Of a DNA stretch of 26,061 bases, positions 9,151 to 24,648 are shown piece by piece. The stretch lies in IMG/VR virus record IMGVR_UViG_3300046532_000070, positions 1 through 26,061 of that record. The stretch is one strand, 5' to 3'. Under the pieces are notes generated by a model. That model was given only the letters and a program-made list of their open reading frames with translations, was not told the origin of the DNA and did not search any database. Each line of letters opens with the position of its first letter. The stretch's first letter is position 1. A program made the position numbers and the translations under genes. Source of the stretch: a virus.

Positions 9151-9465
9151 TTATGGCCGACGATTACCTTCTTCTTTAAAATATTCTTTTGCCTCTCGTG
9201 CCTTATCGTCAATCCAAATGTCATAATGCGGCTTTCTAAAACTTAATGTTGTGTACAATACACCCCATTCTGCAAACTGGTCTTTAGTAAGCTCACTCCA
9301 ATCTTTGCCTGTTGTACCGCCTCTAGCAGTCCAATAATGTATCTCATTGCCTTCATTATACAACCTATTAAAATGCTGTATACGTTGTACGTCAGGTTCA
9401 CTTAATACATACTCACTGTTACTATTATAACAGATTGTTCCGTCTATGTCAACCATATATTTCAT
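9151..9465 (-). CDS. Small HAD-superfamily phosphatase-like protein
   Basis: From the ATG at 9465 (MKYMVDIDGTICYN) the protein is 104 residues. DxDGT at D6 and D8 is HAD motif I, WTARGG is motif II with Thr, and IWIDDKA is the acidic motif IV. There is no cap domain. The frame is open to 9513, but the 9465 ATG overlaps the upstream stop as ATGA and places the Asp motif at the very N-terminus, as is usual. Phage HAD proteins of this size act as nucleotidases, polynucleotide 3'-phosphatases or sugar phosphatases; the substrate is not clear here. About 50 non-coding bases separate it from the polymerase start. Confidence 0.75.
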   Translation of the reverse strand: MKYMVDIDGTICYNSNSEYVLSEPDVQRIQHFNRLYNEGNEIHYWTARGGTTGKDWSELTKDQFAEWGVLYTTLSFRKPHYDIWIDDKAREAKEYFKEEGNRRP

Positions 9466-9742: not shown

Positions 9743-10003
9743 CTATTTGTCCTTGCCGACTGTTGCGACAAGAGTCTCTAAATCATCAAATTCATCAGCA
9801 ACTTTATGCCAATCACCTTTGAATGCTACTTTAATTGCTTTGTTAATAAGACTTGGTTTCATGTCAAGTTCTTCTGCTACTGCTTTAACAGTATCTTTAA
9901 GACCTGCACTTAAATCGTCAATCTCTTGCATAACGTTAGCACCTTCATTAACCAAACGCTCTAGTTTAGCTTTTTCTTCAACACCGTATGTTCTATCACT
10001 CAC
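9743..10003 (-). CDS. DsbA-like small DNA-binding transcription regulator
   Basis: An 86-residue mostly helical protein starting at a GTG (10003) with a strong AAGGAGAA site. LKDTVKAVAEELDMKPSLINKAIKVAFKGDW reads as a helix-turn-helix-like region. Length and pattern fit T4 DsbA (89 residues), a double-stranded DNA-binding protein that modulates late transcription, and similar genes are often annotated so in marine T4-like phages. The assignment rests on recall of the pattern, not an alignment. It is the first gene after a consensus sigma70 promoter, hence made early, ahead of the late promoters it may act on. Confidence 0.5.
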   Translation of the reverse strand: MSDRTYGVEEKAKLERLVNEGANVMQEIDDLSAGLKDTVKAVAEELDMKPSLINKAIKVAFKGDWHKVADEFDDLETLVATVGKDK

Positions 10004-10029: not shown

Positions 10030-10058
10030 ATTATACACGAACTAAAACTGTTTGTCAA
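10030..10058 (-). promoter_or_regulatory. Consensus sigma70 promoter of the polymerase operon
   Basis: TTGACA (10053-10058), a 17-base spacer and TATAAT (10030-10035) on the minus strand: a perfect housekeeping promoter in the gap between the second oxygenase gene and the DsbA-like gene. The transcript would begin near 10023 with a roughly 20-base leader that holds AAGGAGAA. It probably serves the genes from 10003 down to the polymerase and beyond. Confidence 0.9.
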
Positions 10059-12551: not shown

Positions 12552-12559
12552 TATTTATC
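12552..12559 (-). promoter_or_regulatory. Late promoter GATAAATA
   Basis: One-base variant of TATAAATA on the minus strand, overlapping the TAA stop of the 12555-12785 gene and followed by a 20-odd-base leader with AAAAGG before the ATG at 12528. Confidence 0.65.
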
Positions 12560-12785
12560 GTTTAGCTATCTTGGCCCCAAAGAAACTGTCTGATGCATCT
12601 AGTGCATTAACTACAGTTCCGTCTTTGTTCTTTTTAGCTTTCTTCTTAGGAACACCATTCTTGTCACGTGGAATTTGACCCTGTGCATGTACTGGATTAG
12701 CTACAGTTGCAATAGCACCTGCACTTGTACCGCCTGCTGTGGCAGTTTCACCAAGATCCTTTTGAAATAGTTCACGTATTAACAT
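12555..12785 (-). CDS. Small late protein with CTS-like leader
   Basis: A 76-residue protein that begins MLIRELFQKDLGE-TATAGGTSAG, with LGE before Thr as a possible prohead-protease site. The middle is Lys-rich (PKKKAKKNKD) and the end reads NALDASDSFFGAKIAKR. I recall the TATAGGTSAG and final FGxKxxKR patterns from small conserved proteins of marine T4-like phages, function unknown. The start resembles that of the nucleotidyltransferase (MFLRELFE). No close ribosome site is seen; GATAAATA lies 5 bases before the ATG. Confidence 0.7.
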   Translation of the reverse strand: MLIRELFQKDLGETATAGGTSAGAIATVANPVHAQGQIPRDKNGVPKKKAKKNKDGTVVNALDASDSFFGAKIAKR

Positions 12786-12790
12786 ACTGT

Positions 12791-12798
12791 TATTTATC
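12791..12798 (-). promoter_or_regulatory. Late promoter GATAAATA, leaderless spacing
   Basis: Minus-strand GATAAATA with 5 bases (ACAGT) before the ATG at 12785. The TAA in its centre is the stop codon of the upstream HAD gene (12794-12796). The expected transcript start falls on the ATG. Confidence 0.7.
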
Positions 12799-13552
12799 CT
12801 TCTTTAGGGGGCTTAGTAAAATAATCTTTCAATAGTCCAGCAGTACGTTCAAACTTGTGATCTTTATGTTTGAAACCTACGCCACCTTTTGATTCCCAAT
12901 TTCTAATATTAGACCCAAAGTCGTCAATTAGTATGTTAGGTGTACCGTCTGCTTGTTTTGCCCACTTATACTTGTCAGCGGAAACAATAACTTCTTTAGG
13001 CGGAAAAAACGCTAAGTTCTTTTTAACCCATTCACGCTTGTGTGGTTCTGCTCTAGGATCGTTTGCTAGTGGCGCACTTAGTATTGTATACTCGCCTTTA
13101 AGATCCTTAATAATGTTTAGTAAGTTTTGTGCATTTGCTGTTAACGGTAAGTTTAACCAAAAGTCATCTTTGTCTCTAATCTTTTGTAATGCATCTTCAA
13201 TATCTGTAATTTGTCGCCAATCTTTTCCTACAAGTTTCTTCCACGCTGGAAAGAAGTCTGCAAGTACACCGTCCATGTCTACATAGATTTCACTAACAGC
13301 TGATAGTTCTTTAGTTTGTAATTCTTTTATCTGCGACTCGGTCATCCCTAAATTATATAAAGTATTTGCTTTTGTATTCTTACTTGCTTTCTTATGCATA
13401 GTATACTTGGGTTTACCGGCTTTGTCAACCGAAAAACCAAGTTTCTTTGCTTCAATACTAGTTTGGTTAGGACCTACATCGGGAGTAGTGTTAACACCAG
13501 GTACAATAAGACCGACGCCTTCTGATAGCTTAGATATCTCATGCCACCTCAT
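12794..13552 (-). CDS. HAD 5'(3')-nucleotidase-like enzyme with CTS-like leader
   Basis: A 252-residue protein in two parts. Residues 1-85 have no known domain and begin MRWHEISKLSE-GVGL, with LSE before Gly fitting gp21-type cleavage. Residues 88-250 are a HAD phosphatase: YVDMDGVLADFF (D92, D94) is motif I, YTILSAP motif II (Ser), and LIDDFGSNIRNWESKGG motif IV. The C1-cap pattern resembles 5'(3')-deoxyribonucleotidases. Its place among late virion genes and its leader suggest that it is packaged in the capsid and delivered to the new host, perhaps to act on nucleotides. The ATG overlaps nothing upstream; its 5' end is overlapped by the stop of 13549-13779 (ATGA). Confidence 0.75.
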   Translation of the reverse strand: MRWHEISKLSEGVGLIVPGVNTTPDVGPNQTSIEAKKLGFSVDKAGKPKYTMHKKASKNTKANTLYNLGMTESQIKELQTKELSAVSEIYVDMDGVLADFFPAWKKLVGKDWRQITDIEDALQKIRDKDDFWLNLPLTANAQNLLNIIKDLKGEYTILSAPLANDPRAEPHKREWVKKNLAFFPPKEVIVSADKYKWAKQADGTPNILIDDFGSNIRNWESKGGVGFKHKDHKFERTAGLLKDYFTKPPKEG

Positions 13553-13779
13553 TTCTTTTTACGTCCTCTAAAGCCTTGTGGCATATTTTGGTTAGTCATG
13601 TAAGGTCTATTAAACCAAAGTTTAAACCAATCTTGATCACCAGGTTTTAAACCTAATTTTTTTTCTTTTTGTTTTAGAGCTGTTGCAGTGATACTAGGGT
13701 TTTCGTCAATCTTATATTCGGAGTAACCTTTATATTCGTTTACGCCTGCAAGTTGAATTATACGTTCTAGTTCATCCAT
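13549..13779 (-). CDS. Small basic late protein, function unknown
   Basis: A 76-residue protein starting MDELERIIQLAGVNE and ending in a very basic tail (GFRGRKKK). VNE at 13-15 and IDE at 25-27 could be protease sites but are weaker matches than in the neighbours. KPGDQDWFKLWFNRPYM suggests a small folded core. It is coupled to both neighbours: TAATG with the nucleotidyltransferase upstream and ATGA with the HAD gene downstream. Confidence 0.65.
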   Translation of the reverse strand: MDELERIIQLAGVNEYKGYSEYKIDENPSITATALKQKEKKLGLKPGDQDWFKLWFNRPYMTNQNMPQGFRGRKKK

Positions 13780-15395
13780 TACTTTGCTTTGGCCTTACCA
13801 GCTTTCATATTAGCCATCCAATGTGCCATACGTTGCTTTTCGCCACTGCTACCTTTTGCAGTTTTTCTTAAACTACTTACACTTGCTTTAGTATCAACTC
13901 CACTACGCTTGGCTAATCCTTTACGTCCGGGCTTCTTGCCGTCTGCAAAGTTTTCATCGTAGTGTGCATCTTTGTTTCCACCTGCGTCTTGTGTCTTATA
14001 GCCCATCTTCTTTAGAGCTACTTTAATAATTTCATCTTCTTCAGGACTAAACGGAACAATCATTACATCTGGCTCAGATGGATTAACATCGTCTGGGTCC
14101 ATAGTATCTGTGTTTGCAAGGTGTGTACCTAGCTTAATAAAATCATACGCTGTGTCTGACTTTGCTAACGTACTACTTTTAGGATTAGGAATTAGATCAC
14201 CTTCATTTTTCATAGAGGCAACATTACTAATCATTTTATAGATATCGCCGCCTGCTTTTTTAAATGCTTGTGAAACTTCTTTCTCTGTAAACTTTAAATA
14301 ATCAACCATGTACATTGCAAGGCCAGCTTCACCATCGCCTTTGTACATATCAATTAAGTCTTGTTCTAAATTACTACTACTTTCGTTAGCATGTATTGCG
14401 GCTTGTTGTTTCTTACGCATAGGATGTCCTTTACCGTGGATACCTTTCTTACGTCCGTCACCTTCTTTCATAGCAGAAATAAGCATGTCTTCTAATTTGT
14501 TTAACTCGTCTCTATCAACTTCAAATTGTGTTAATACTTTTTCTAATTCTTTTTCGTCTTTTGTTTTAATTAACTCGTTATACAGTTTCGTTCCACCGTA
14601 TAGTGCTACTGCAATACCAACAGCTGGTAATCCGTATCTGCCTAGTGCTTGTGTAACAGGGTGATCTAAGAATCTGTTAGCCCATTTTACTGCATCTCTT
14701 ACCCAAGGATAAACTTTCCAAGTAGCAGTTAAGAACCCTATGGCCCATTTATTGTTCCAAAAGAACTTACCAATTTTACCAACAGCCATTACGCCTCTAA
14801 GAGCAGGTACTGCCCATTCGTCTAAACTTTCATCTTCTGTAGCAATGCCCATACCTTTTCTAACTTGGTCGTACATTGAAAGAGCAAACATTGGACTAGC
14901 AACACCTTTCTTGAAACTATTGTAGTCACCTTCTTGTGCCGCGGCTCTCATTTTACTTGCACTCATGCCTTCAGCACCTTCTGCATCGGGATCACGTTCG
15001 CCTGCACTTACAATATTAATACTGTTAAACTTATAATCTTTGCCGTTGTAGTCATTTAATAGTTTAGTAAATGAATCAACTCTATCACTACCTGCTACAT
15101 ACACAATGTCTGTGTAACCTTTAGCTTCTAAATTCTGCATTGCTTGGATAATAGTTTTTACTTTAGGATCACCAATTTCAACTCCAGGGAAACTCTTCGA
15201 TGCGAAGTACATCTTCTCTGGAAAAGGTAGTGGATCTGTTTTAGGTTTTTGTGTTTGGCTTAAAAATAGAAAAGGATCACCTTGTTGTGACTTTACTACG
15301 TCAGCTAATTTAGCGTGTCCAATAGTGGGAGGGTTCATTCTACCAAATGCAAACACCGCAGTTTTGGGTGCTTCAAATAACTCTCTTAGAAACAT
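13779..15395 (-). CDS. Nucleotidyltransferase fused to a putative virion domain, CTS-like leader
   Basis: A 538-residue protein. It starts MFLRELFE-APKT (LFE before Ala, a gp21-type site). Residues about 12-190 are a cytidylyltransferase/NMN-adenylyltransferase fold: FGRMNPPTIGH (17-27) is the HxGH-type site with Thr in the first place, YVAGSDRVDSF is the middle motif, and MSASKMR the ISSTxxR motif. Residues about 205-290 contain two hydrophobic stretches (WAIGFLTATWKVYPWV and YGLPAVGIAVALYGG). The rest is charged and ends Lys-rich (WMANMKAGKAKAK). Phage proteins of this head type are annotated as cytidyltransferases in cyanophages. The enzyme could act in NAD or CDP chemistry; the tail suggests a packaged or ejected protein. 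Confidence 0.8.
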   Translation of the reverse strand: MFLRELFEAPKTAVFAFGRMNPPTIGHAKLADVVKSQQGDPFLFLSQTQKPKTDPLPFPEKMYFASKSFPGVEIGDPKVKTIIQAMQNLEAKGYTDIVYVAGSDRVDSFTKLLNDYNGKDYKFNSINIVSAGERDPDAEGAEGMSASKMRAAAQEGDYNSFKKGVASPMFALSMYDQVRKGMGIATEDESLDEWAVPALRGVMAVGKIGKFFWNNKWAIGFLTATWKVYPWVRDAVKWANRFLDHPVTQALGRYGLPAVGIAVALYGGTKLYNELIKTKDEKELEKVLTQFEVDRDELNKLEDMLISAMKEGDGRKKGIHGKGHPMRKKQQAAIHANESSSNLEQDLIDMYKGDGEAGLAMYMVDYLKFTEKEVSQAFKKAGGDIYKMISNVASMKNEGDLIPNPKSSTLAKSDTAYDFIKLGTHLANTDTMDPDDVNPSEPDVMIVPFSPEEDEIIKVALKKMGYKTQDAGGNKDAHYDENFADGKKPGRKGLAKRSGVDTKASVSSLRKTAKGSSGEKQRMAHWMANMKAGKAKAK

Positions 15396-16336: not shown

Positions 16337-16675
16337 CTAATGATTTAACAGTACACTAGTTACTGTTCCTGATGTATAACTTACCACAGTTCTAACCCAA
16401 ACAAAGTTTCCTGTAAAGTTTTTAAAATACCCACCATCGGATCCTGTTACGCTAGTACCATCAACATCGAACCAGTCGCTGTCAGTTGGTGTTACGGCAA
16501 GGGTTCCTTGCATCTTTATAGTTCCGTTGAAAGCTATTAGGTTATATTGTACAGTATGGAAACCATCTGCACGACCGTAGTAGCCATCGCCTTTAAATGG
16601 TTCACCTGTAACAGCTTGTGTAGTACTATCTGCTGGGTGAACGTTCTGTGTTAATATTGTTATACTATTGGACAT
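16337..16675 (-). CDS. Beta-rich virion surface/tail protein, putative
   Basis: A 112-residue Thr/Ser/Gly-rich protein with beta-strand character throughout (GTIKMQGTLAVTPTDSDWFDVDG, then NFTGNFVWVRTVVSYTSGTVTSVLLNH). I recall this pattern from small structural proteins of marine myoviruses, perhaps decoration or tail-associated. There is no ribosome site before the ATG at 16675. A GATAAATA late promoter lies 5 bases upstream, so a leaderless mRNA is likely. Confidence 0.7.
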   Translation of the reverse strand: MSNSITILTQNVHPADSTTQAVTGEPFKGDGYYGRADGFHTVQYNLIAFNGTIKMQGTLAVTPTDSDWFDVDGTSVTGSDGGYFKNFTGNFVWVRTVVSYTSGTVTSVLLNH

Positions 16676-16679
16676 ATAG

Positions 16680-17330
16680 TTATTTATCTAGTTCTGTACT
16701 CGATACGATTTTATCGATACGCATGAAGTCTCGCTTTAAAAACAATCTTATTAGTGTTATAGTAGCATGATCTTTAACGTACATGTACTTTCCTTTTAGA
16801 TTATACCCACCTTTAATGTCACTTAATACAACGCCACCTATCTTAATTTTGTCTTTATGTTTTAAACAAAATCCAGCTAAGTTAGGATCTGCTGATCCGT
16901 TAAGTGTAACCTTATAAGCAAACTTAATAGTGTCGTTAATAATAACACCCTTAGGAAGATCAGCATTATCTCTGGGCATGTGTATAGAACACACAGCATT
17001 TAATTTACTGTTTAGTTGCTTAACCCATTCAAAGTTATTAGTGTATATACCTAAGTGCCACGTTTCGCAACGTAGCTTATAGTCTTCTTCTTGATTAGTA
17101 AATTCATGTAATAGAGTCTGTAAGTCTTTTAGTTCTTCTTGACTTACTCGTACATCTCTCATTCCTATACGAAGGAACCCATTACCAGTTGCTTGGTCTA
17201 ATGCACTATCGATTGACTTTCGTGCAAAGGACATGTTCTTATTTCTAAAAACATGCCCTAGTGCGTTTGACAAGTCTACTTTATATTTGTATTTGTCAAA
17301 GAATAGTTTAGTTGAGTCAATCTTGATCAA
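16680..17330 (-). CDS. Unknown protein co-translated with the ClpA-like gene
   Basis: A 216-residue basic protein. The only start that gives the full open frame is a TTG at 17330, which lies inside the last codons of the clpA-like gene (14-base overlap), so translational coupling is likely; the next ATG (17234) would drop 32 residues. The sequence has a helical N-terminal third and a beta-rich end (IKFAYKVTLNG, GGYNLKGKYMYVKDHATITLIRLF). No domain was recognised. Its position as the last gene of the dnaJ-def-clpA transcript suggests a substrate, adaptor or partner of that machinery, which is inference. Confidence 0.65.
   Translation of the reverse strand: MIKIDSTKLFFDKYKYKVDLSNALGHVFRNKNMSFARKSIDSALDQATGNGFLRIGMRDVRVSQEELKDLQTLLHEFTNQEEDYKLRCETWHLGIYTNNFEWVKQLNSKLNAVCSIHMPRDNADLPKGVIINDTIKFAYKVTLNGSADPNLAGFCLKHKDKIKIGGVVLSDIKGGYNLKGKYMYVKDHATITLIRLFLKRDFMRIDKIVSSTELDK
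16681..16688 (-). promoter_or_regulatory. Late promoter GATAAATA, leaderless spacing
   Basis: Minus-strand GATAAATA overlapping the stop of the 16680-17330 gene, with 5 bases (ACTAT) before the ATG at 16675. It marks the switch from the early-promoted dnaJ operon to the late virion genes. Confidence 0.75.
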
Positions 17331-19575
17331 CGGTTTCTGGCTCCTTAACCTTAGACTTAACTGATGTTAAATCAAATGCACCATCTTTAACATCGATATG
17401 TAATGTACCGCCGTTTTTCAATTCACCAAACAACAATACTTTAGATAGCGGAGTCTTAATATCGTTATCAATAACACGTTGTAACGGTCTTGCACCCATT
17501 TTACTATCAAAGCCTTTGTCAATAAGGAAGTCAATAGCTTCATCGGAAATAGTAGTTTCAACATCTTTGTCAGTTAGCATAACTTTAAGATCAACTAAGA
17601 ACTTACCTACAATTTTAATCATTGTATTTTTATCTAACTTACCAAATGTCATAATACCATCAAGTCTGTTACGGAACTCTGGAGCAAAGAATTTTTTAAG
17701 TTCACTATCATCGTGTTCTTTTTCCATCTCACCAAAGCCAACTGTATTAGTTTCAGCTTCCGCGGAACCTAAGTTAGTTGTAAGAATCATTACAATGTTT
17801 CTACAATCAGCAGTCTTGCCGTTTGAACCTGTAACAAATCCGTTATCCATAATCTGTAATAATAGTTGACTAACATCTGGATGTGACTTCTCAATTTCAT
17901 CAAGCAGTAGTACACAGTTAGGATTTTCTTGTACTTTAGTAATAAGTAATCCTGAATTTTCTTCAAAGCCAACGTAGCCTGGAGGTGAACCAATAAGTTT
18001 AGCAACACTATGCTTCTCTTGATATTCACTCATATCAAATCTAATTAGTTTTACACCTAGTTGACTAGCTAATTGTTTTGCAGTTTCAGTCTTACCAACA
18101 CCAGTTGGACCCATAAACACAAATGAACCAATTGGTTTATTATCTGCTTTAAGTCCTGCTTGAGCAACATGAATCTTATCTACAATACTATCAATTGATT
18201 CGTCTTGTCCGTAGATCTCTGCTTTCATATTATGATTTAAGTTAGCAAGGTTACTTGTTTCAGTTTCCATAATCTGCTCAGGTGGCAAGTTAATCATCTT
18301 AGCAAGTTCAAATTGAATCTCTCTCATGCCAACTACTTTAGACGTATCTTCTTTAAGTTTAAATCTTGAACATGCAACGTCTAGTAAGTCAATAGCTTTA
18401 TCTGGTAGCTTCTTATCTGTTTGAAATTTGATACTAAGTTTAATAGCAGTATCAATAGCCGCCTCAGTAATTTCTACTTTATGAAATTCTTCGTAATACT
18501 TTTTAATACCAGTAAGAATATCTTTAGTAACATCTTTACTAGGCTCGTCAACACTTACACGAGCAAATCTACGCATTAATGCACGATCCTTTTCAAAGAA
18601 CTTACGATACTCTTCCCATGTAGTTGAAGCAACTACTTTAATATTACCTTTAGTAAGAATAGGCTTTAACATGTTTGCTAGATCATTTGACTGTCCAGCA
18701 CCGCCAGCACCAGCACCACTTATCATGTGTGCTTCGTCAATGAACATAATAGTCTTGCCTTTCTTTTTAAGTCCAGCAATAACTAATTTAAAGCGTTCTT
18801 CAAAGTCTCCACGGTACTTACTACCAGCTAACATACTACCAATGTCTAGGTTATACACTGAATACTCTTTTAAGAATTCAGGCACTTTACCATTTACAAT
18901 ATTGTATGCAAGTCCTTCTGCAATAGCAGTTTTACCTACACCCGGCTCACCAACTAGCAGTACGTTGTTCTTCTGTCGACGACCAAGTGCTAGTGCAATG
19001 CTTTCGAGTTCTTCTGAACGTCCAATTACAGGATCAATCTTACCTGTCTCAGCGTCAATATTAAGGTTTGTAGTAAATGAACGCAATGCTCTAGTAGCCA
19101 TGCCTTGCATTTCTTCATCTTCATAACTTGCTTCAAGCTCGTTGTTTAGATAGTCTGCAAACTTTTCTTTTTCAATTCCAGTTTCACTAATAAAGTACAA
19201 TGCCCAACTTTTCTTTTCGTTGAACATACTCAAGAACACATCAGTAACTTCAATGTTATTGCGTCCGCTGAATAACACTTGAGTAAATGCTCTGTTTAAT
19301 ACACGCTCTACTGCTTGTGTTTTCTTAGGCTTGTACTTCTTAGGTACTTCAACCATTAACAAATCAGTGCATTTAGTTTTTAGATAATTTTCAACATTCT
19401 TTTTCATAAACTCAGGATCAGCTGTTCCGTACCCTGATACTATATTCGAAAAGTCTTCCTCGCATAGCATTGCAAATAGCAAATGCTCTAAGGTAAGATA
19501 CTCATGGCTGAGTTGCTTAGTAACTTCTGTTGCTTTATCGAATATCTTCTGTAAGTTTTCGCTAGGTTCAACCAT
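17317..19575 (-). CDS. clpA: ClpA/ClpC-type AAA+ unfoldase
   Basis: A 752-residue Hsp100 ATPase, close to E. coli ClpA (758). A Clp N-domain (about 1-145) is followed by AAA+ module 1 with Walker A GEPGVGKT (209-216) and Walker B IMFIDEA (276-282), then module 2 with GPTGVGKT (489-496) and VLLLDE (555-560). It ends with the D2 small domain (GARPLQRVI). The ClpB/ClpC middle coiled-coil is absent. VGF at 612-614 sits where ClpA has IGL and ClpC has VGF, the loop that docks on ClpP, so it may couple to host ClpP. The ATG overlaps the deformylase stop (TAATG). All ATPase residues are intact. Confidence 0.93.
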   Translation of the reverse strand: MVEPSENLQKIFDKATEVTKQLSHEYLTLEHLLFAMLCEEDFSNIVSGYGTADPEFMKKNVENYLKTKCTDLLMVEVPKKYKPKKTQAVERVLNRAFTQVLFSGRNNIEVTDVFLSMFNEKKSWALYFISETGIEKEKFADYLNNELEASYEDEEMQGMATRALRSFTTNLNIDAETGKIDPVIGRSEELESIALALGRRQKNNVLLVGEPGVGKTAIAEGLAYNIVNGKVPEFLKEYSVYNLDIGSMLAGSKYRGDFEERFKLVIAGLKKKGKTIMFIDEAHMISGAGAGGAGQSNDLANMLKPILTKGNIKVVASTTWEEYRKFFEKDRALMRRFARVSVDEPSKDVTKDILTGIKKYYEEFHKVEITEAAIDTAIKLSIKFQTDKKLPDKAIDLLDVACSRFKLKEDTSKVVGMREIQFELAKMINLPPEQIMETETSNLANLNHNMKAEIYGQDESIDSIVDKIHVAQAGLKADNKPIGSFVFMGPTGVGKTETAKQLASQLGVKLIRFDMSEYQEKHSVAKLIGSPPGYVGFEENSGLLITKVQENPNCVLLLDEIEKSHPDVSQLLLQIMDNGFVTGSNGKTADCRNIVMILTTNLGSAEAETNTVGFGEMEKEHDDSELKKFFAPEFRNRLDGIMTFGKLDKNTMIKIVGKFLVDLKVMLTDKDVETTISDEAIDFLIDKGFDSKMGARPLQRVIDNDIKTPLSKVLLFGELKNGGTLHIDVKDGAFDLTSVKSKVKEPETVDQD

Positions 19576-20102
19576 TATGTTATATATGCTCCAAATCGTT
19601 TTAATAATTTTATTTGCTTTTTCTTAGCAATGTCGAGTTTAAGTTTACTTACCCGGTCTGTAAAGTTAATACCGTATAAGTGATCGTATTCATGTCCTGC
19701 AATTCTTGCATTCCATCCTACTAGTTCTATTGTACACTCTTTGTTAGTAGAGTCAAGATACTCTATTACCATTCCTGTTGGTCTTTTTACTTTAAAGAAC
19801 AGTAAAGGAAAACTTAAACACCCTTCTTCGCCAAGTACTGTGTCTTGACTAACTGCTGTAATCTTAGGATTAATTATAGCAAATGGTTTGTTGTCTTCGT
19901 GTCCTTTCAACTCGTCTGGTTTCATAACAAAAATCTGTGCATCAAGACCTACTTGGTTAGCAGATAGTCCAACACCCTTCTCTTCTTCCATAAGTCTAAT
20001 CATTTCAGCTTCAATTTCAACAGCGTTGTACTTGTCAAAGTCAAACGGTGCTACTTCTTTTGCTAAAAATGGATCAGGATATCTAACTAGTTTTAGTTTC
20101 AT
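19575..20102 (-). CDS. def: Peptide deformylase
   Basis: A 175-residue enzyme of bacterial length with all three deformylase motifs: GVGLSANQVG (43-52), EGCLSFP (93-99) with the metal-binding C95, and HEYDHLYG (137-144) with H137, E138 and H141. It should remove the formyl group from new proteins. Unlike many phage deformylases, which are shortened, the C-terminus here is complete (KKQIKLLKRFGAYIT). Its start lies 20 bases inside the dnaJ end, and its stop overlaps the clpA start. Marine phages are known to carry deformylases; the pairing with chaperone genes is less usual. Confidence 0.95.
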   Translation of the reverse strand: MKLKLVRYPDPFLAKEVAPFDFDKYNAVEIEAEMIRLMEEEKGVGLSANQVGLDAQIFVMKPDELKGHEDNKPFAIINPKITAVSQDTVLGEEGCLSFPLLFFKVKRPTGMVIEYLDSTNKECTIELVGWNARIAGHEYDHLYGINFTDRVSKLKLDIAKKKQIKLLKRFGAYIT

Positions 20103-20928
20103 CTTGTATTTCTCTTAACTTTTCTCTGGTTAATTCGTTATCAATTTTTGGGGTAACCCCTTGTACCTTAATGTATAAGTTTCCTGTTTTTCCTAACCGT
20201 TTGTTAGGCAATCCTTGTCCGCCAATACTAAAAGTTGTGCCTGGGTTAGATCCAGCTGGTACATTAACACTTAGAGTACGTCCGTGGATTGTTTTGACCT
20301 GTATATTTGTGCCTAAGATAAAATCAAATAGATTTAACTTTCTCTCTATATATAAATTTATGCCATCTACGTCATAGTCGGGGTGTCTTCTGACTCGTAT
20401 AACGACATGTAAATCCCCTCTTGGAGCATTTTGGACAATGTCGCCACCCATACCATGATATCTAATTCTATCTTCTGACTGTATACCCGGAGGTAAAGTA
20501 ATGTTTACAGTTTCTTCTCGACCACTTGGCAATCTATAAGTTGCTATAACATCTTTACCAGAAACAATGTCCTCTAAACTAATATCAGCGGCAATGGTTA
20601 TATCTTGGTTACGCATTTGTCGTTGTCTTTGTTGTTGTCCAAACATAGACCCAAATATATCTTCAAATTGAGCACCGCCAAACTGTTGTGAGAAATGACT
20701 TTGTTGTTGTGACTGAGCCTGTTGAGGATCAGCAGTTCCAAACTGGTCATACATTTGTTTTTTTTGCGGATCTTTTAGTGCTGAGTACGCTTCGTTAACT
20801 TTTTTAAACTGAGTGTCGTCTCCACCAGTTCTATCAGGATGATGTTGCATACTTTGCTTCTTGTATGCTTTCTTGATCTCTGCTGTCGAAGCGTTGCGAG
20901 AAACGCCTAATATTTGATAATAATCCAT
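20083..20928 (-). CDS. dnaJ: DnaJ/CbpA-type co-chaperone
   Basis: A 281-residue J-domain protein. Residues 1-65 are the J domain (YYQILGVSRNASTAEIKKAY) with the HPD motif at 30-32. A Gln-rich linker (about 75-107) replaces the Gly/Phe segment, and the C-terminal substrate-binding domains follow (ADISLEDIVSGKDV, NITLPPGIQSEDRIR, GDLHVVIRVRRHPDYDVDG). There is no CxxCxGxG zinc finger, so it is a type II protein like CbpA. It should recruit host DnaK. It is the first gene after a consensus sigma70 promoter and overlaps def by 20 bases. Confidence 0.95.
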   Translation of the reverse strand: MDYYQILGVSRNASTAEIKKAYKKQSMQHHPDRTGGDDTQFKKVNEAYSALKDPQKKQMYDQFGTADPQQAQSQQQSHFSQQFGGAQFEDIFGSMFGQQQRQRQMRNQDITIAADISLEDIVSGKDVIATYRLPSGREETVNITLPPGIQSEDRIRYHGMGGDIVQNAPRGDLHVVIRVRRHPDYDVDGINLYIERKLNLFDFILGTNIQVKTIHGRTLSVNVPAGSNPGTTFSIGGQGLPNKRLGKTGNLYIKVQGVTPKIDNELTREKLREIQDETKTS

Positions 20929-20934
20929 ATTACT

Positions 20935-20963
20935 ATTATACGCTTATATTAGGCGTTTGTCAA
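20935..20963 (-). promoter_or_regulatory. Consensus sigma70 promoter of the dnaJ-def-clpA operon
   Basis: TTGACA (20958-20963), a 17-base spacer and TATAAT (20935-20940) on the minus strand, 6 bases before the ATG at 20928. The leader would be nearly absent. The -35 lies next to the stop of the secreted-protein gene. The spacer contains GGCGTTT/AAACGCC matching a copy within dnaJ codons (20901-20907), probably by chance. Confidence 0.85.
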
Positions 20964-22805: not shown

Positions 22806-22993
22806 TACTTCTGTCTAACTGAATCTATAAAACTATATACTCTACCAAATTGTTTATCAATACTGAATAAATCTTGTTGAATCATAGTTACTAGAAGTTG
22901 TAGCTCTATCAATGTTACTAAAGTCCATGTAGCCAATCCCATTAAGATTGTACCTAACAAGCCTATTAACATTGTATTAGTTTTTCTGGTCAT
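22805..22993 (-). CDS. Small single-span membrane protein
   Basis: A 62-residue protein with one long hydrophobic stretch (MLIGLLGTILMGLATWTLVTLIELQLLVTMI) and a charged C-terminal helix (FSIDKQFGRVYSFIDSVRQK). It overlaps both neighbours by one base (TAATG on each side). No family was recognised. The place between two lipoproteins suggests a lysis accessory, such as a small inner-membrane spanin or holin regulator, which is inference. Confidence 0.6.
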   Translation of the reverse strand: MTRKTNTMLIGLLGTILMGLATWTLVTLIELQLLVTMIQQDLFSIDKQFGRVYSFIDSVRQK

Positions 22994-23379
22994 TATTTCT
23001 TTTTAGGGGTTTCGATCGTTTCGTAGTATTCTTTATATGACTTAATAATTTCGTCTTGTTGTAGCATGTATGCACGTATCTGTGCAAAGTTTTTACTTAG
23101 AGCTTCGTAACCGTCATCTGTTAATCCAAACAACACAGGATCTACTCCACCTGCTTTAAGTTTAGCAAACACTTCGTCTGCATTATCAGATGTAATAATA
23201 GTCCATTTAATTTCTTCTAGCTTTGGAGTTAACGGTAGAGGCAACGCAAGAGGTTCTCTAGGAACTTCTGTTTTAAAGATCTCTAGATGCTTAACAGAAC
23301 TACATCCACTAATAAGGAATGTACTTAGGATTAGCAATACTAGGACACTCTGAGTTGATTTCAGACTTTTTAGTAGCAT
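22993..23379 (-). CDS. Outer-membrane lipoprotein, putative o-spanin
   Basis: A 128-residue lipoprotein. The signal runs to LISGC (C26), followed by a Pro-rich mature start (EVPREPLALPLPLTPKLEE) and a helical end (LSKNFAQIRAYMLQQDEIIKSYKEYYE). Its first 71 bases overlap the end of the coiled-coil membrane gene at 23309-23794 in another frame, the usual arrangement of spanin pairs (Rz/Rz1). It should sit in the outer membrane and link to the i-spanin. It is longer than most o-spanins. Confidence 0.7.
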   Translation of the reverse strand: MLLKSLKSTQSVLVLLILSTFLISGCSSVKHLEIFKTEVPREPLALPLPLTPKLEEIKWTIITSDNADEVFAKLKAGGVDPVLFGLTDDGYEALSKNFAQIRAYMLQQDEIIKSYKEYYETIETPKKK

Positions 23380-23794
23380 TTTTCTCTTTCTCCGTTAATG
23401 GTGACCCCATAGCAATTTCTACACATCTCATTGCTTTTGTAGTCGCACCGTTAATAACTCGTTCAACTGATTTAGGACGTTCATCTGCAAGTTTGCCTAT
23501 GTCACGTACTTGACCTTGACCGTTGATTTTATTAAAGCGTTTATCTAACGCTGTAAATTCAGCTTGTAATGATTTGTTTTGTGCATCTAAGTTAGCTGTA
23601 ATTTTTCTTTGTGATTCAAAGTCAGCTTTTGCTTGGGCAATCACTTGTTTTTGACTTTCAACACTTTGTTCTAACTTCAAATTGTTTGCTTCTGATGTTG
23701 CGAGATCTGACTTTAAAGTTTTAACGTATACAAATCCGCCGCCAGCACCGGCTAACATTATTACTATCATTGCAATCTTGATTGAACTAAACAT
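23309..23794 (-). CDS. Inner-membrane coiled-coil protein, putative i-spanin (Rz-like)
   Basis: A 161-residue protein. An N-terminal membrane anchor (IKIAMIVIMLAGAGGGFVYV) leads into a long coiled coil (about 26-90: LATSEANNLKLEQSVESQ, ASQ-rich repeats) and a Cys-containing end (MRCVEIAMG, NSECPS). This is the layout of an inner-membrane spanin, and the lipoprotein gene overlaps its end. An AGGG site precedes the ATG. It lies directly after the endolysin, as expected for a lysis cassette. Confidence 0.75.
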   Translation of the reverse strand: MFSSIKIAMIVIMLAGAGGGFVYVKTLKSDLATSEANNLKLEQSVESQKQVIAQAKADFESQRKITANLDAQNKSLQAEFTALDKRFNKINGQGQVRDIGKLADERPKSVERVINGATTKAMRCVEIAMGSPLTEKEKNATKKSEINSECPSIANPKYIPY

Positions 23795-23799
23795 AGTGT

Positions 23800-24648
23800 T
23801 TACCCTAGTAACTTTTTTATTGTATTTGGTCCTACTATTCCGTCAGCAGTTAAGCCGTTAGCGCCTTGCCATTCTTTAACAATACGTGCAGTACCTGGAC
23901 CAAAGATGCCATCAGCAGGTGAAATATCAAGTTTCTCTTGTACTTCTGCTACTAGTGGACCACGTGATCCTACTCGAATAGTTTGATTATAATCAACTGT
24001 TGGTTCTTCATAGTCGCCACCTAATACATCTAAAGCATGTATGTAATGTTTCTTACGATCTTCTAAACCAATTGTACCACCGTTGATACGTTTTGTTGCT
24101 CCGACAATGTCTTGACCGTCACAATATTTGTTTAAGCCGTTTGTATCCCAGAACCAACAAGCTGAGTCTAGTGCGCCTTTCTTTGTGCGTACATAATCAG
24201 TTGCTTCTTCAGGAGACATTTCAACTGCTTTACTAAATTCTGTATAGTTGTAACGCCCAGTTAGCTGTAGTATGCCACCACCTCTAAATCTCCAACCATC
24301 ACCACTAGCAGTATCGCCGTTGTCCATGCGTGAAGCGTAAATAACGTTTGCAATTTTTTCTGGTTGTCTGTGATATGGTTGTGGGTCTCTTCCTGCTCGT
24401 ACAAAGTACTTGCCGAATATTTTATTTAATGCACTTGCACTATAATTTAAGTTTTCGCTTAGTGTTCTAAAGCCACCACTTTCGTGTCCACACTGAGCAA
24501 CAAACATAGCAACTCTTTCAATGGAATTTACTTCCCATAACGGAAGTATTTCAAGCATTGCTTCATACCAATCCTTCCAATCATCTCTATGAATAAGCTC
24601 TTCAGCCATCCACGGTTCAAAGTCGAATTTAAAATGTTCTTTGGCCAT
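23800..24648 (-). CDS. Endolysin: GH19 lysozyme/chitinase-like plus peptidoglycan-binding domain
   Basis: A 282-residue enzyme without a signal peptide. Residues about 35-205 form a glycoside hydrolase family 19 domain: AQCGHESGGF (51-60) holds the catalytic E56, LSENLNYSA the second acid E65, and GDGWRFRGGGILQLTGRYNY (116-135) is the family core motif. Residues about 222-282 are a PG_binding_1 domain (GSRGPLVAEVQEKL, DGIFGPGTARIVKEWQ, DGIVGPNTIKKLL). It degrades host peptidoglycan at lysis; without a signal it needs a holin for release. The binding domain is at the C-terminus, as in several Gram-negative phages. Confidence 0.93.
   Translation of the reverse strand: MAKEHFKFDFEPWMAEELIHRDDWKDWYEAMLEILPLWEVNSIERVAMFVAQCGHESGGFRTLSENLNYSASALNKIFGKYFVRAGRDPQPYHRQPEKIANVIYASRMDNGDTASGDGWRFRGGGILQLTGRYNYTEFSKAVEMSPEEATDYVRTKKGALDSACWFWDTNGLNKYCDGQDIVGATKRINGGTIGLEDRKKHYIHALDVLGGDYEEPTVDYNQTIRVGSRGPLVAEVQEKLDISPADGIFGPGTARIVKEWQGANGLTADGIVGPNTIKKLLG

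Follow-up and report, generated by a model that had tools for sequence, protein, structure and literature searches.

A conserved dnaJ–clpA module with a predicted promoter of its own before clpA in phages related to Atu_ph07 and Phosso

Chaperone and unfoldase genes are recognised in several large phages, and a review of jumbo phages suggests assembly or host-targeting roles for ClpA and DnaJ (PMC7824862). In Agrobacterium phage Atu_ph07, the position of ClpA beside DnaJ is evident from the published gene numbers (PMC6102473). The report on Sinorhizobium phage AP-J-162 lists a deformylase as gp154 and DnaJ as gp155 (PMC11242549), neighbouring gene numbers as in the locus described here. RaK2 and Vibrio phage 2.275.O also carry clpA; however, neither dnaJ nor def lies beside it in these phages. 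Of the marine viral and cyanophage deformylases, a class to which those of Vp16 and S-SSM7 belong, several have been demonstrated to be active; the ribosome-binding C-terminal region is said to be missing from viral deformylases (PMC5591237). A literature search of incomplete coverage found no paper on a linked module or on a promoter inside def, and none that names a phage operon with all three of deformylase, DnaJ and ClpA. As a type, this set of chaperone genes is familiar; how its members are linked and controlled appears not to have been described before.

The window, by which we mean the whole 26,061-base virus record analysed here, carries on its minus strand the genes dnaJ, def and clpA and a fourth gene for a protein that we call X (Table 1). 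The four open reading frames overlap as an earlier sequence-only reading had claimed, by 20 nt (dnaJ/def), 1 nt (def/clpA, TAATG) and 14 nt (clpA/X). Three of the identities are confirmed by Pfam, with DnaJ and DnaJ_C matched in the dnaJ product, Pep_deformylase in the def product, and the ClpA AAA domains (AAA, AAA_2, AAA_lid_9 and ClpB_D2-small) in the clpA product. The same reading placed the start of X inside clpA, which the 14-nt overlap bears out; the start codon is to be corrected to what is most likely a TTG. On sequence, the phage of the window is grouped with jumbo-type myoviruses related to Sinorhizobium phage Phosso and to Atu_ph07, with whose DNA polymerases its own shares 51% and 46% identity, respectively. 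No Rfam family and no tRNA was found in the window.

Table 1. Positions of the module, its predicted control elements and flanking genes in the window
Feature	Position	Strand	Description
Lysis genes	22993..24648	−	Upstream of module; endolysin 23800–24648; Rz-like spanins 23309–23794 and 22993–23379
Sigma70-type promoter	20935..20963	−	TTGACA-17-TATAAT, exact match; −10 ends 6 nt before dnaJ ATG
dnaJ	20083..20928	−	Class B (CbpA-type) J-domain protein, 281 aa; HPD motif; zinc finger absent
def	19575..20102	−	Full-length peptide deformylase (175 aa) with all three motifs of the active site; C-terminal helix basic
Promoter-like element for clpA–X	19729..19756	−	TTGACT-16-TACAAT inside def; 2 mismatches
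clpA	17317..19575	−	ClpA-type Hsp100 unfoldase, 752 aa; N-domain and two AAA modules; VGF ClpP-docking tripeptide
Shine–Dalgarno-like site for X	17341..17346	−	AAGGAG, inside clpA, 10 nt before TTG start
X	16680..17330	−	Conserved unknown, 216 aa; TTG start inside clpA; basic; two ferredoxin-like domains predicted
o112	16337..16675	−	Short protein, usual next gene after X; weak match to virion protein family

Phosso (PV764938) has the same dnaJ–def–clpA order and orientation as the window, with spanin-like genes upstream, a promoter-like site in def and an o112 homologue about 2 kb downstream. It differs in that X is absent from this place and that genes for thymidylate synthase and DHFR come next; its ClpA is approximately 42% identical to that of the window. 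In Atu_ph07, dnaJ adjoins clpA (gp293 and gp292), the o112 homologue lies just beyond and spanin-like genes again stand upstream; unlike the window, it has no def between dnaJ and clpA, and its X-like gp014 is far away. The o112 homologue thus recurs, 0.5–2.1 kb after clpA, in both phages. The claim that the operon is embedded in late genes agrees with these surroundings: the lysis genes and relatives of virion structural proteins lie upstream of the module, and a relative of a virion protein, o112, lies downstream. The module sits inside a larger syntenic block, and adjacency alone is not proof of joint function. Beyond the module, the N-termini of several neighbouring proteins (13779–15395, 12555–12785 and 12794–13552), with the sequences MFLRELFE, MLIRELFQ and MRWHEISK, look similar by eye and perhaps represent a common targeting or capsid-cleavage signal.

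Gene order was compared across 80 IMG/VR loci retrieved by clpA, of which the 69 with full flanks were counted, and across loci retrieved by X, dnaJ and def to avoid selection on clpA; loci within the family are not independent, and the counts and p-values given here overstate the number of events. The complete order dnaJ–def–clpA–X occurs in 48/69 of the clpA-selected loci; def alone is absent between dnaJ and clpA in 17, and X alone is absent in four (L027, L028, L030 and L031). When loci were retrieved by X, clpA was directly upstream in all 69 new loci, and when they were retrieved by dnaJ, clpA came next in 76/78, the other two contigs ending inside clpA. With def as the query, clpA was next in 58/77 loci and was not nearby in 17–18. 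In one relative a 229-aa gene sits between clpA and X (L068:12240–12929). The pair dnaJ–clpA is the core of the module, X is tightly linked but lost in one lineage, and def is optional. Within the family, the genes of the pairs dnaJ–clpA and clpA–X stay together rather than lying in separate places. The proposed four-step pathway, leading from deformylation to degradation, is weakened by these counts, and def, being missing from some loci and found elsewhere without nearby clpA, is therefore treated as a passenger.

The dnaJ product had been read as a J-domain co-chaperone, and its J-domain and C-terminal domain sustain this assignment. The Cys-rich zinc-finger region that lies between these domains in DnaJ has no Pfam match in the protein, which is therefore, as judged from its domains, a class B (CbpA-like) J-protein. 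Identity as a class A DnaJ was rejected on this missing match together with a TIGR02349 score under the cut-off. The H30-P31-D32 motif is invariant across 27 relatives. The deformylase is full length, as first read: the motifs GxGLSANQ, EGCLS and HExDH are present in the window and, allowing for S/A variation in GxGLSANQ, are kept in 21 relatives, and the protein passes TIGR00079 (118.4 versus a cut-off of 103.95). Its catalytic motifs are intact, like those of the Vp16 and S-SSM7 enzymes (PMC5591237). A Lys-rich C-terminal helix is retained across the group, unlike what is usually said of viral deformylases; in the window it falls in the region 19575–19700.

The clpA product aligns over nearly its full length with Escherichia coli ClpA; the alignment takes in the N-domain, the two AAA modules, the ClpP loop and the D2-small domain. 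It differs from that protein in being phage-encoded and in carrying VGF instead of IGL. Its two AAA modules and C-terminal ClpB_D2-small domain are those of a class I Hsp100. The NCBIfam ClpA equivalog is the best-matching family but its cut-off is not reached (872.7 versus 993.15 bits), and the protein is therefore named ClpA-type rather than an orthologous ClpA. A ClpP-docking tripeptide, I/V/L-G-F, is present in 63/63 distinct ClpA sequences amid residues that vary, which makes degradation through ClpP the likeliest predicted activity. ClpP itself was found in 6/19 and 5/9 long records, including Phosso, Atu_ph07 and a 268-kb close relative (L106), and was not found in many other long records, which are possibly incomplete. 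Hsp70 was found in 1/26 records, a count that may likewise reflect incomplete records. One relative (L109, G025) encodes a divergent member of the ClpP family along with ClpS and Hsp70, all within about 9 kb of one another, at approximately 78.7–87.3 kb.

Taken together, we favor the reading, with a probability of roughly 0.62, that the locus is a conserved host-takeover or assembly module of jumbo-type myoviruses, in which clpA–X would have its own promoter, the J-protein would work with host DnaK and ClpA would work with ClpP. The main alternative is that the J-protein and ClpA serve as folding or remodelling chaperones for late virion proteins, without proteolysis, and that this is why they lie among lysis and virion genes. 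The presence of such genes on both sides of the module, the many long records in which ClpP was not found, and the assembly role proposed for ClpA and DnaJ in the jumbo-phage review (PMC7824862) are all consistent with this explanation. We nevertheless consider it rather unlikely, since the docking tripeptide is kept in every distinct ClpA and the predicted separate promoter before clpA, described below, points to expression independent of the late genes.

Turning to X, the protein has no match in Pfam, PHROG or NCBIfam; a profile of X found nothing credible among PDB sequences, and a tblastn search against annotated phages returned a single weak partial match, which we disregarded. AlphaFold predicts two alpha/beta domains, with a pLDDT of 79.7 for the whole protein and 89.6 for the C-terminal domain alone, and X is probably composed of two ferredoxin-like domains, the resemblance in this model being weak. 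Neither X nor its C-terminal domain gave a confident match to solved structures (Foldseek E >0.001; best VIA Z 5.4 and 4.9). The comparison showed only a common ferredoxin-like arrangement, and matches to Csy4-type and EF-G-type folds were not above background. A structural match points to an X-like protein in Atu_ph07, gp014, for which a weak sequence match gives a position of about 9.4 kb, well away from clpA. The protein is strongly basic, with a mean pI of 9.2. Among 80 distinct clpA/X junctions, the start of X lies inside clpA in nearly all; TTG is the commonest start codon and occurs at the identical 14-nt overlap in 39, and a Shine–Dalgarno-like motif accompanies 42.

Such an arrangement invites the suggestion that X is an adaptor or regulator of ClpA that feeds clients to ClpAP, with its expression coupled to that of clpA; the sequence-only reading had proposed an adaptor or target. 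The direct succession of clpA and X in the loci retrieved by X, and the mostly TTG start inside clpA, are in keeping with this idea. However, X is not recognised as a ClpS by sequence: it has no match to the ClpS profile, though this profile detects genuine ClpS, encoded away from the module, in 6/26 related records. Several of these phages thus encode ClpS elsewhere; moreover, clpA persists without X in one lineage, another gene can separate the two (L068), the X-like protein of Atu_ph07 is distant from clpA, and X is basic. The predicted fold matched no known adaptor, a result that rules out no adaptor. On balance, we consider an adaptor role unlikely.

Upstream of dnaJ, the exact sigma70-type site is one of four exact TTGACA-17-TATAAT matches in the window, where 0.06 would be expected; one of the four falls inside a coding frame (9424–9452). 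Another (10030–10058) precedes a relative of PHROG transcription regulators (9743–10003), and a further one (1672–1700) lies at the annotated start of 1207–1671, the true start of which may be further in. The 6-nt spacing between the −10 hexamer and the dnaJ ATG is identical in all nine distinct contexts, comprising the window's subclade and relatives. As no Shine–Dalgarno sequence is present in this interval, the dnaJ mRNA is predicted to be probably leaderless; in contrast, leaders that contain AGGAG-like sites follow many of the other consensus promoters of these contigs. This promoter had been taken as the single consensus early promoter of the operon. The site before dnaJ is indeed exact, but it is not common to all relatives, being confined to the subclade of the window and to a small number of further relatives; most have instead a conserved site before clpA. 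A late-promoter case was dropped, the T4-type late promoter TATAAATA having one match in the window against 2.8 expected.

The more widespread element lies before clpA. In the 200 nt upstream of clpA, 56/89 distinct loci have a site that departs from the consensus at no more than one position, compared with 3.3% of random same-strand intervals and 0.7% of those taken from the opposite strand; the remaining 33 loci, which include the window's subclade, are without such a site in this interval. Where def is present, the site is inside def, 133–177 nt before clpA; where def is absent, it is mostly in the non-coding dnaJ/clpA gap, 27–45 nt before clpA. The def-internal element is perfect or has one mismatch in many relatives, versus two mismatches in the window copy. 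Its −35 hexamer spans Leu and Asp codons of def that are fixed as CTT and GAC in 54/54 distinct genes each, against backgrounds of 15.5% and 30% (nominal p of 2e-44 and 1e-28, values overstated by relatedness); at other conserved Leu columns of def, the top codon accounts for 31–89%. The def gene of Phosso contains TTGACA-16-TATACT, placed over other codons, and the dnaJ–clpA gap of Atu_ph07 contains TTGACA-16-TATTTT, with two mismatches. The element follows the sigma70-type consensus (TTGACA/TATAAT, spacing 16–18), is enriched over chance and is conserved; we thus assign it as a putative second sigma70-like promoter for clpA–X. Given the weak def copy and the perfect dnaJ promoter in the window, the strong promoter thus appears, on this comparison, to have moved to dnaJ in the window's subclade. 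That the CTT GAC conservation reflects some other constraint, such as RNA structure, codon context or the protein itself, is very unlikely, for although a few other def columns are also near-fixed in codon (Phe TTT, Glu GAA and Cys TGT), the CTT GAC pair is accompanied by a −10-like hexamer at a spacer of 16, the identical motif occurs in the non-coding gap where def is absent, and the Phosso motif is at another position of def.

Returning to the favored host-takeover or assembly module, its core, by gene order, would be dnaJ–clpA, with def and X as lineage-dependent additions. Host RNA polymerase carrying a housekeeping-type sigma factor would read clpA–X from the def-internal or gap promoter, and in the window's subclade the whole set would also be read from the strong promoter next to the start of dnaJ; the module would thus be expressed apart from the surrounding lysis and virion transcription. 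The J-protein may recruit host DnaK, because the phages checked, with one exception, are without an Hsp70 of their own. ClpA hexamers would unfold selected proteins and, as the conserved docking tripeptide suggests, pass them to ClpP of host or phage origin. X would be made from its TTG start at a low level coupled to clpA and may perhaps act on a nucleic acid or on a ClpA client rather than as a ClpS-type adaptor. It is doubtful, though conceivable, that the ClpA–X unit, in some genomes together with a ClpP and a ClpS encoded by the phage, uses the promoter hidden in def to switch targeted host-protein degradation independently of the late operon, with X as a new ClpA partner or client.

Phage DnaJ, ClpA and deformylase have so far been reported singly, and their roles have been guessed. 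A deeply conserved dnaJ–clpA pair, a predicted promoter proper to clpA–X and a ClpA that appears competent for ClpP would allow testable statements about what phage chaperones do, and the module can be studied in the laboratory in the rhizobial phages already in culture. The promoter-like element inside def would, in addition, be an unusually clean case of regulatory sequence kept within a viral coding gene.
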